Below, in pieces: positions 1,560-17,395 of a DNA stretch of 50,259 nt. A model generated the notes under the pieces. The model did not search any database. It was not told the origin of the DNA and was given only the letters and a program-made list of their open reading frames with translations. Position numbers and translations under genes: made by a program. This stretch comes from an uncultured Actinomycetes bacterium (lineage in GTDB: Bacteria > Actinomycetota > Actinomycetes > Nanopelagicales > Nanopelagicaceae): the NCBI GenBank assembly GCA_903873185.1, contig CAIQNN010000041.1:1-50259 (forward strand), in the 5' to 3' direction. Each line of letters starts with the position of its first letter. Position 1 is the first letter of the stretch.

Positions 1560-1577
1560 AATGGTTCCTAGTCACAT

Positions 1578-1603
1578 AACGAACTATCAGGGCAAAAGGT
1601 TCA
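1578..1603 (-). promoter_or_regulatory. ECF-type promoter for the sigma/anti-sigma operon
   Basis: Read on the reverse strand, TGAACC (1598-1603) is followed by exactly 16 bases and CGTT (1578-1581), then ATG. This is the -35/-10 layout of mycobacterial SigL-type promoters. It lies just upstream of the sigma gene start at 1559. Confidence 0.7.
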
Positions 1604-1626
1604 TTTGATTTGGGGCCGTTAAGAAG

Positions 1627-1652
1627 TGAACTTTAATGGGAGATAACTCGTT
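1627..1652 (+). promoter_or_regulatory. ECF-type promoter for the secreted repeat protein
   Basis: TGAACT (1627-1632), 16 bases, then CGTT (1649-1652). It has the same motif and identical spacing as the divergent promoter at 1578-1603, and lies about 43 bases before the TTG start at 1695. The match strongly suggests both transcripts belong to one sigma regulon. Confidence 0.7.
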
Positions 1653-1694
1653 AAAGGGGTAACTGAGAACATCAAATGAAAGAAGGTAAGGGCC

Positions 1695-2318
1695 TTGAAC
1701 CTGAAATTGATTGGCAAACTCTCGCTCTCTGTAGCTTTGGCACTGATTGCTGGATCGGTATCCACCGCCACAGCTTTCAGCGGCGATATTGGCGTAGGTG
1801 CCTCTTCGCTGGGAAATATCATCATCGATGGCAAAGGCATGACCGCCTACTACTACGACCGAGATGTTCCGAATTCCGGCGTTAGTACCTGCACCGGCGC
1901 TTGCCTGACTCATTGGCCGATCATTGCTTCCGCTACATCCACTCCGGTTATTCAGGGAATTAGCGCAAAGGTCACGATCATTGCCGCAACGAATCAGATA
2001 GTGGTTAATGGCCGCCCGATTTATACCTTTGCTGGCGATGTAAAGCCAGGAGATACAAATGGTCAAGGAGTCGGCGAAGTTTGGTACGTCATCTCCCCCA
2101 GCGGAGTTGAATTAACTCCCGCGGAATTAGCTAGGGCAACCACCGCACCGAGCACCTCACCAACTGCAACAGCGACACCAAGCCCATCAAAGTCTCCAAA
2201 AAGCCCAATCGTGCCTAAAAAGATTATCTCCAAGAAGAAGGTGGCCAAAAAGAAAGTAGCAAAACCAACGGCAGCCAAAGTAGCAGTTGTCAGAGGAACT
2301 GGAAAAGGTTCTTACTAG
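1695..2318 (+). CDS. Secreted repeat protein (Lipoprotein_15 type) with lysine-rich tail
   Basis: A 207-residue protein starting at TTG, with AGAAGG upstream. A signal peptide (about residues 1-27) has no lipobox cysteine, so it is probably exported and cleaved rather than lipidated. Two copies of the secreted repeat of unknown function (PF03640-like) follow. The first contains the typical YYYDRD and CTGACLTHWP block, and the second contains GRPIYTF and GEVWYV. A Thr/Ser/Pro linker then leads to a strongly basic C-terminus with repeated KKKVA units, which might contact the wall or other acidic polymer. This family is often found beside ECF sigma/anti-sigma genes in Actinobacteria. The molecular function is unknown. 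Confidence 0.85.
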   Translation: MNLKLIGKLSLSVALALIAGSVSTATAFSGDIGVGASSLGNIIIDGKGMTAYYYDRDVPNSGVSTCTGACLTHWPIIASATSTPVIQGISAKVTIIAATNQIVVNGRPIYTFAGDVKPGDTNGQGVGEVWYVISPSGVELTPAELARATTAPSTSPTATATPSPSKSPKSPIVPKKIISKKKVAKKKVAKPTAAKVAVVRGTGKGSY

Positions 2319-15857: not shown

Positions 15858-16652
15858 TCAGTCATCTGTCTCATGTTCTCCGCCCCCAGGAACCGAGCCC
15901 AACTGGCTCGTTGAAGAGGGCCTTGGGCTGGGAGATTTTGAGTGTTCCGACTCAGTTCTAGTTGTTGATGAAGGCCTTGGTGTCGGGGATTTCGAGTGCT
16001 CAGATTCGCCCTCACCCTTATTGCTCCCTGAAATCGATGGCAACGGTTTTGGTGAACCCTCGGCTTTATGGCTCTCCTCGGCAGACCGGCTAGCGCTCAC
16101 CGTTGGTGACTTTTCGTGTTGCTCACTCTCTGAATGAGTCGGCTTTGGATCTGGTTTAACTACGGGAACCGGAACTGGCTCAGCACTCTTTGCCGGAGTC
16201 GGAGTGTTCTTGGAATCCTCAGATGAAGGTTGCGTCGAAGGAGTTTGAGATGGCGTCGAGTCCGAGCTTTTGCTCGTACTTGGCAGCGGTGAAGCTGCCG
16301 GCGTTGAACTTGGACTGGTTGTGTCCGTCGTAAGTGAGGCAATTTTATGGGCAACCGATACCACTGGCTTGGAAACGGTATGAATGAAGCCTTCGATCTG
16401 ATGGCTGACACGTTCTGGGAGCACGCCGGCATAAGCCAGCGACGGGATTGCTAACGCGATGAAAATTGCTGGGAAGGCAATCCCCTTTGTAATCTTTCGC
16501 GCAGCTTTCGGTTTGGCACTTCTAAATGCCACCAAGAGTTCCGAAAGGTCGCTTTCGCGAGCGGTTACTGGTTCGGCAGCAAAGGCTCGAAGTGATTCGA
16601 ATAACGGATCATTAGCGAAATCGTCGGGGGAATTGATTTCATTGTTATTCAT
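15858..16652 (-). CDS. Ser/Thr/Pro-rich single-pass membrane protein, probable ECF partner (anti-sigma-like)
   Basis: 264 residues from ATG 16652; a GTG at 16664 is less likely because the AGGGGG ribosome-binding site would overlap it. A short acidic cytoplasmic part is followed by one membrane helix (around 60-80), then a long low-complexity outside part rich in S, T, P, K, E and H. Two tandem 18-residue units of ESEHSKSP type occur near the end. The gene overlaps the sigma gene by 8 bases, the position of an anti-sigma factor, but no zinc motif is visible. It might instead act as a wall-spanning sensor or glycosylated stalk protein. No close family was recognised. Confidence 0.7.
   Translation of the reverse strand: MNNNEINSPDDFANDPLFESLRAFAAEPVTARESDLSELLVAFRSAKPKAARKITKGIAFPAIFIALAIPSLAYAGVLPERVSHQIEGFIHTVSKPVVSVAHKIASLTTDTTSPSSTPAASPLPSTSKSSDSTPSQTPSTQPSSEDSKNTPTPAKSAEPVPVPVVKPDPKPTHSESEQHEKSPTVSASRSAEESHKAEGSPKPLPSISGSNKGEGESEHSKSPTPRPSSTTRTESEHSKSPSPRPSSTSQLGSVPGGGEHETDD
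15900..16007 (-). repeat. Tandem repeat of 54 bases (two units)
   Basis: Units at 15954-16007 and 15900-15953 each encode 18 residues beginning ESEHSKSP and continuing with a P-R-P-S-S-T segment. They lie inside the Ser/Pro-rich membrane protein. The DNA copies differ at several positions, so the duplication is not recent. Confidence 0.8.
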
Positions 16653-17244
16653 GAGCGGATGCACCCCCTAACGATTCTCTTAAGGTGGCTAGCCCTCGAT
16701 GAGCCAAAACTCGAACTGAATTAGCGTTCTTTCGAACTACCTTTGCCGTCTCTTCCACGGACAAGTCAGAGACAATTCGAAGCAACAAGACTTCACTTTG
16801 TGCCGGGGGTAACTTTTGGATTGCAGCGACGATTCGTCGGACCTCTTCAGTCCCAGCAAATTCTCGCTCTACATTTAAGGCGCTCGGAATCCAGAAAGCT
16901 TCTTCTAACTCTTCCGTTGGTCGCACCTGACGGTCTCGAATTCGCACGGCATCAATAATTCGATGGCGAGCAATCGTGTAAAGCCAGGCCGCAAATTCTG
17001 AGGGGCCGCCTTCGAACTTGCGAAGATCGCGAGCGACGTTAAGCCAGGTCTCCGAGACAATTTCATCGGCGTCGATAGAGCTATTGACTAGCCGAGATTG
17101 GGCGAAGCGAGTCAACTTGGAGTTGTGATGTCGCCAAAGGATGGTAAATCCCGCCTCGTCGCCACGGCGAGCGTTGGCAAGGGCATCACTTAACACCTCC
17201 TCTGGTGAGGGTTTATCTGACCCAAAGGTCGACTGATCGCTCAT
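16645..17244 (-). CDS. ECF RNA polymerase sigma factor
   Basis: 199 residues from ATG 17244, with a G-rich stretch just upstream; a TTG immediately before it (17245-17247) is an alternative. Region 2 is present in DADEIVSETWLNVARDL and AAWLYTIARHRIIDAVR, and region 4 in LPPAQSEVLLLRIVSDLSVEETAKVV. It resembles the general actinobacterial ECF type that pairs with a membrane anti-sigma factor, here the overlapping downstream gene. Regulon and signal are unknown. Confidence 0.9.
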   Translation of the reverse strand: MSDQSTFGSDKPSPEEVLSDALANARRGDEAGFTILWRHHNSKLTRFAQSRLVNSSIDADEIVSETWLNVARDLRKFEGGPSEFAAWLYTIARHRIIDAVRIRDRQVRPTEELEEAFWIPSALNVEREFAGTEEVRRIVAAIQKLPPAQSEVLLLRIVSDLSVEETAKVVRKNANSVRVLAHRGLATLRESLGGASAHE

Positions 17245-17395
17245 CAACCCCCCAAAGTTGAAGCTACAACTCGGTAAGCGTAGGTAACTCTCATTTCATT
17301 ACCCCTTTGCTACCGATTGCGAGTGTGGCGCCAAGAATACGAGAAGCTGGCGCTTGGTTTCGGCGAGTTTGACCTGAGAGTTGGGGTAGTAAAGC

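Follow-up and report, generated by a model that had tools for sequence, protein, structure and literature searches.

Paired TGAAC-N16-CGTT sites predicted to tie a SigL-related sigma factor to a secreted COG4315 protein in an uncultured actinobacterium

The genes for an ECF-type sigma factor and for a secreted repeat protein diverge across positions 1560-1694 of a 50,259-nucleotide stretch of DNA (here the window) from an uncultured member of the Nanopelagicaceae, and two nearly identical promoter-like motifs stand back to back between them. Are these sites promoters read by the adjacent sigma factor, and do they assign the secreted protein to it as an output? The original prediction described divergent twin sites of the form TGAAC[C/T]-N16-CGTT with identical 16-base spacing, and this proved exact, the interval 1578-1652 spanning both.

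Layout of the divergent locus

The locus comprises the following features (window coordinates):

1603-1578 (-): predicted autoregulatory ECF promoter of the sigma operon, TGAACCTTTTGCCCTGATAGTTCGTT; -35 TGAACC at 1603-1598, 16-bp spacer, -10 CGTT at 1581-1578
1627-1652 (+): predicted ECF promoter of the secreted Lipoprotein_15 gene, TGAACTTTAATGGGAGATAACTCGTT; -35 TGAACT at 1627-1632, 16-bp spacer, -10 CGTT at 1649-1652
1604-1626: 23-bp gap between the back-to-back -35 elements
1656-1661 (+): GGGGTA just 3' of the target-side -10
1559-1044 (-): ECF sigma gene, SigL-related, 171 aa (Pfam, NCBIfam and PDB matches)
1047-331 (-): membrane zinc anti-sigma gene, RslA-like, 238 aa (Pfam zf-HC2, RslA match, sequence)
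1695-2318 (+): secreted Lipoprotein_15 (COG4315) gene, 207 aa, TTG start (Pfam PF03640, AlphaFold2 model)
1565-1569 (-): AGGAA ribosome-binding site of the sigma gene, read from the sequence
1681-1686 (+): AGAAGG ribosome-binding site of the secreted-protein gene, read from the sequence

The sigma-side site lies 18 nt 5' of the sigma ATG at 1559, and the target-side site 42 nt 5' of the TTG at 1695, a start supported by its good ribosome-binding site. The gap between the two -35 elements is kept at about 22-23 bp in six close relatives, as judged from their site positions. The GGGGTA that follows the target-side -10 is probably a discriminator or start-site region; bases 7-9 past CGTT read GTA at 13 of the 15 target-side sites of the order, and this GTA is absent from the sigma-side sites.

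The sigma factor contains the Pfam regions Sigma70_r2 and Sigma70_r4_2 and no others, is encoded together with an overlapping anti-sigma gene (the two share 4 nt at the end of the sigma gene) and, at sequence level, has its own AAC/CGT-type promoter, all of which fits an ECF (group IV) sigma factor. The anti-sigma factor matches zf-HC2 (E 6.6e-6), and its best match in the PDB is RslA (3hug_B, E 1.6e-15), with whose HLAGCPEC its zinc motif HLAHCDEC (H-x3-C-x2-C) aligns, which fits a zinc anti-sigma (ZAS) of the RslA type. One hydrophobic segment is read as transmembrane, with the C-terminus extracytoplasmic. For RslA itself redox sensitivity has been shown and release by oxidation proposed (PMC2877774).

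The divergent gene encodes a protein with a signal peptide, two repeats with a Y-x4-D motif, matched by PF03640 in two stretches (E 4.3e-24), and a tail rich in Lys, Ala and Pro. Its signal peptide lacks the lipobox Cys. It also matches the SCO0930 family lipoprotein model (NF040526), but at 102 bits versus a cut-off of 275.

A second ECF-type sigma gene is present in the window at 16645-17247 (-), and after it comes a protein rich in Ser, Thr and Pro that has one hydrophobic segment (15858-16664, -); the pattern scan of the window found no TGAACY-N15-17-CGTT site near it.

Chance, conservation and co-occurrence

In the window the pattern TGAACY-N15-17-CGTT occurs four times against 0.52 expected, a count reached in none of 100 shuffles, and the two matches besides the twin sites (29468 and 38847) fall inside ORFs. 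The 1.63-Mb draft genome as a whole holds 28 matches, fewer than the 56 of the reversed control, and for this reason the bare pattern has no evidential weight; with the sixth base relaxed and the spacer fixed at exactly N16 there are 21 sites, again not above control, so that enrichment genome-wide is lacking in either form. A credible gene start is located 3' of only two of the 28, namely the twin sites, while the other 26 lie inside ORFs. The original prediction had offered its motif as a regulon search pattern; as a genome-wide regulon finder in this genome it was rejected, since its counts are at or below control, and its use depends on added gene context or on comparative data.

These counts also bear on the simplest alternative, that the pattern is common enough for two copies to meet by accident. 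The number of matches in the genome would allow for it, but none outside the pair precedes a gene, and in many species the pair or a single site is again present at the corresponding places, a conservation that refutes chance similarity and leaves it a negligible probability. At the density of the relaxed pattern in this genome, about 0.001 TGAACn-N16-CGTT sites are expected per 200-bp upstream region. The significance of the putative twin promoters is thus one of position and conservation, not of the bare pattern.

Conservation in cis was assessed in 103 homologous loci of the class, in 85 of which TGAACn-N16-CGT stands no more than 220 bp before the sigma gene; among the other spacers of 10 to 24 bases none is found in more than 9 of these 103 regions, and reversed or scrambled motifs occur in none. 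Wherever the divergon is intact in a close relative, both twin sites are retained; this includes one relative (L031/L037) whose divergent gene encodes a secreted CHRD-domain protein and not COG4315. The -10 is CGTT at both window sites and in all members of the order, and for most divergent targets it stands about 39-43 nt from the start of the gene.

Sites in mirror orientation are also frequent among operators of divergent regions, and TGAAC...CGTT could accordingly be no promoter at all but the binding site of a dimeric regulator or a structural DNA element. The strict 16-bp spacer, the promoter-like distance just mentioned, the resemblance to promoters known from a sigma family that has been studied and the occurrence of single sites, in one orientation only, before unlinked genes argue against an operator, which we regard as very improbable.

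The unlinked genes are those of genus g4, whose COG4315 genes do not adjoin the sigma gene. A site upstream of them was predicted before inspection, and TGAACn-N16-CGTT was found upstream of all eight COG4315 genes located away from the sigma gene. Indeed, every Lipoprotein_15 gene found in the 296 genomes of the order carries the site, whether linked to the sigma gene or not. Among these genomes the sigma factor is present in 15 and PF03640 in 10, all 10 falling within the 15 (Fisher p 2.5e-15); in good-quality genomes only, PF03640 occurs with the sigma factor in seven of seven cases (p 2.8e-8). Both values overstate independence, as the genomes are related and the cases of co-occurrence fall into three genera.

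Are the twin sites perhaps ECF promoters read by another ECF sigma factor, or by several jointly? The genome encodes five sigma-70-type proteins over the cut-off, four of them besides the window sigma, and ECF promoters generally share AAC...CGT cores (PMC8103513). Nevertheless, within the order site-bearing COG4315 genes occur only in genomes with this sigma factor, the exact site precedes the sigma gene itself in most homologs, and a SigR-like sigma that was examined has a candidate GGAA-N18-GTT and no TGAAC site. We therefore consider recognition by a different sigma unlikely, if somewhat less so than an operator, and favor recognition of both sites by the adjacent factor. The reading of the original prediction, in which one divergent ECF promoter precedes the sigma/zinc anti-sigma operon and the other the secreted repeat protein, is in line with the sequence evidence, and the proposed tie between that protein and the sigma factor is strengthened by conservation, co-occurrence and the sites in trans.

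When the downstream GTA is added to the pattern, sigma-bearing genomes yield mostly COG4315, CHRD and cupredoxin-DoxX genes, and a cupredoxin-DoxX pair in one of them (L225) is a further credible target. The extended pattern also scores in sigma-free genomes, mostly via recurrent near-identical matches. Two extra matches in sigma-bearing genomes (G006 and G105) overlapped ORFs on inspection and were discarded. The search for targets identified none in four sigma-bearing genomes (G006, G087, G069 and G105). In another genome (G093), a gene for a sulfocyanin-like lipoprotein, with a weak SoxE match just under the cut-off, immediately precedes the sigma gene in the same orientation.

The sigma factor and its -10 element

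The best PDB match of the sigma factor is SigL of M. tuberculosis (6dv9, E 2.2e-44), and over residues 4-169 it matches NCBIfam NF007227 (PRK09645; E 4.4e-58) with 196.1 bits, a score slightly short of the curated cut-off (202). The locus resembles M. tuberculosis SigL/RslA (Rv0735/Rv0736) in its ECF sigma factor, in its membrane zinc anti-sigma matching RslA and in its putatively autoregulatory TGAAC-N16-CGT, which is also found in mycobacterial loci of adk-map-sigL order. In a maximum-likelihood tree, though, the window sigma falls into a 20-member clade (100/98) with the other members of the order, L032 and a second mycobacterial paralog, while mycobacterial SigL forms a separate group (100/98) that does not include it. 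Because of this placement in a separate supported clade we regard it as a sister of mycobacterial SigL and not as its ortholog; some mycobacteria carry both types.

The earlier claim that the sites match mycobacterial SigL promoters holds for the -35 element and the spacer only: M. tuberculosis SigL prefers CGTG at its -10, whereas the sites of the window sigma, which lies outside the SigL clade, are CGTT (some mycobacterial SigL loci have CGTT or CGTA too). The targets differ as well, those of M. tuberculosis SigL being characterised, e.g., pks10 and Rv1139c, and that of the window being COG4315. For M. tuberculosis SigL a -10 preference for T-G at "-12/-11" has been described, strongest for G at the fourth position, with H54 and D60 setting the "-12/-11" bases and D60 the preference for G (PMC6372665). 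The window sigma retains H54 and has Gln at the position equivalent to D60. Among homologs, the fourth -10 base is T at 14 of 18 Q60 sites versus 4 of 23 D60 sites (p 1.5e-4), and G at 12 of the 23 D60 sites, a comparison confounded by phylogeny; the covariation of Q60 with T and of D60 with G fits a shift in specificity and may serve as a lead.

Taken further, one might picture a SigL-sister lineage whose -10 shifted from CGTG to CGTT together with the D60-to-Gln exchange in the recognition loop, and which in small-genome actinobacteria became dedicated to an extracytoplasmic redox output around COG4315, a family that has no counterpart among PDB structures, or alternatively around CHRD or cupredoxin-DoxX proteins. 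We put this forward tentatively, and hold it for rather doubtful.

COG4315 outputs and the proposed circuit

Y25, D30, C39 and C43 are invariant across 19 COG4315 homologs, the two cysteines forming a C-x3-C; the proteins of L032 and L071 were read as having a lipobox. An AlphaFold2 (AF2) model of residues 28-145 (window 1776-2129, +) reaches a pLDDT of 95, and a fold search of the PDB with it returned no match (best E 0.84, TM below 0.2), nor did a sequence search of the PDB with the protein.

Six loci from other families of the class have a site-bearing COG4315 gene linked to the sigma gene, and in these families the extracytoplasmic neighbors located behind TGAACn-N16-CGT comprise COG4315, DUF2231 membrane proteins, a YceI-like protein (a reading of the sequence, with no Pfam match in the part scanned) and a Rieske protein. 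These SigL-type divergons (DUF2231/COG4315 in family f36, COG4315/YceI-like in L071 and L073, Rieske in L069) are like the one in the window in combining sigma and anti-sigma with extracytoplasmic genes that lie behind the site and are divergent or close by, but they differ in their target sets and have CGTG at many -10 elements. Across the class, most sampled PF03640 genes are without an N16 site: at the top 30 PF03640 loci N16 is found in eight and N17 in nine, with N16 in 4 of 10 loci from genomes with the sigma factor and 4 of 20 from genomes without, and the mycobacterial PF03640 paralogs show no TGAACn-N16-CGT-type site. The predicted link between COG4315 and the site is strong in this order and in some families, and not universal.

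Further arrangements were seen along the way. DUF2231-type membrane proteins diverge from SigL-type sigma genes with a TGAACn-N16-CGT of their own at five loci (L083, L087, L090, L094 and L154), where the start codon lies only 9-10 nt past the CGT, which suggests nearly leaderless transcripts. At many loci of the mycobacterial SigL type, 12 in all, a second TGAACn-N16-CGT precedes a thiamine-pyrophosphate enzyme gene some 1.2-1.4 kb downstream, just after the anti-sigma gene. TGAAC with a 17-base spacer before CGT stands at PF03640 genes of several large genomes of the class (nine loci), perhaps for a different ECF sigma acting on the same family.

With the promoter elements, their exact spacing and conservation, the co-occurrence of sigma factor and target and the sites in trans observed directly, we consider it very likely that the locus encodes an ECF sigma/anti-sigma module under positive autoregulation and with a secreted output dedicated to it, operating through two back-to-back TGAAC-N16-CGTT promoters. 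By analogy with studied homologs, the membrane-anchored anti-sigma factor would hold the sigma factor back through its zinc-binding domain and release it upon oxidation or another envelope signal, and the released sigma with RNA polymerase would then read both promoters. The sigma-side promoter would amplify the sigma/anti-sigma operon as positive feedback, and the target-side promoter would express the secreted COG4315 protein. The role of the sigma factor would be a small extracytoplasmic output, as drawn from the same promoter before unlinked COG4315 genes, before the CHRD protein in one relative and before the cupredoxin-DoxX pair in another. The RslA-like sensor, the C-x3-C that is invariant in COG4315 and the cupredoxin-DoxX and Rieske targets elsewhere hint at a redox theme.

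Autoregulated ECF/anti-sigma divergons are a well-known kind of system (PMC8103513). In the literature searched we found no paper linking COG4315/PF03640 to an ECF sigma factor, and as far as that literature goes the dedicated link of the SigL-sister lineage with COG4315 appears to be new. This link would couple an ordinary type of regulator to a family that is uncharacterised. Of 395 genomes sampled across the class, 134 encode COG4315/Lipoprotein_15, a widespread family whose function Pfam lists as unknown and whose confident model matches no fold in the PDB; the link to the sigma factor provides a concrete regulatory handle. With exact N16, CGTT and gene context as the promoter rule, regulon members can be predicted in genomes available mostly as draft assemblies, and finding what releases the sigma factor would tell when the COG4315 protein is needed.
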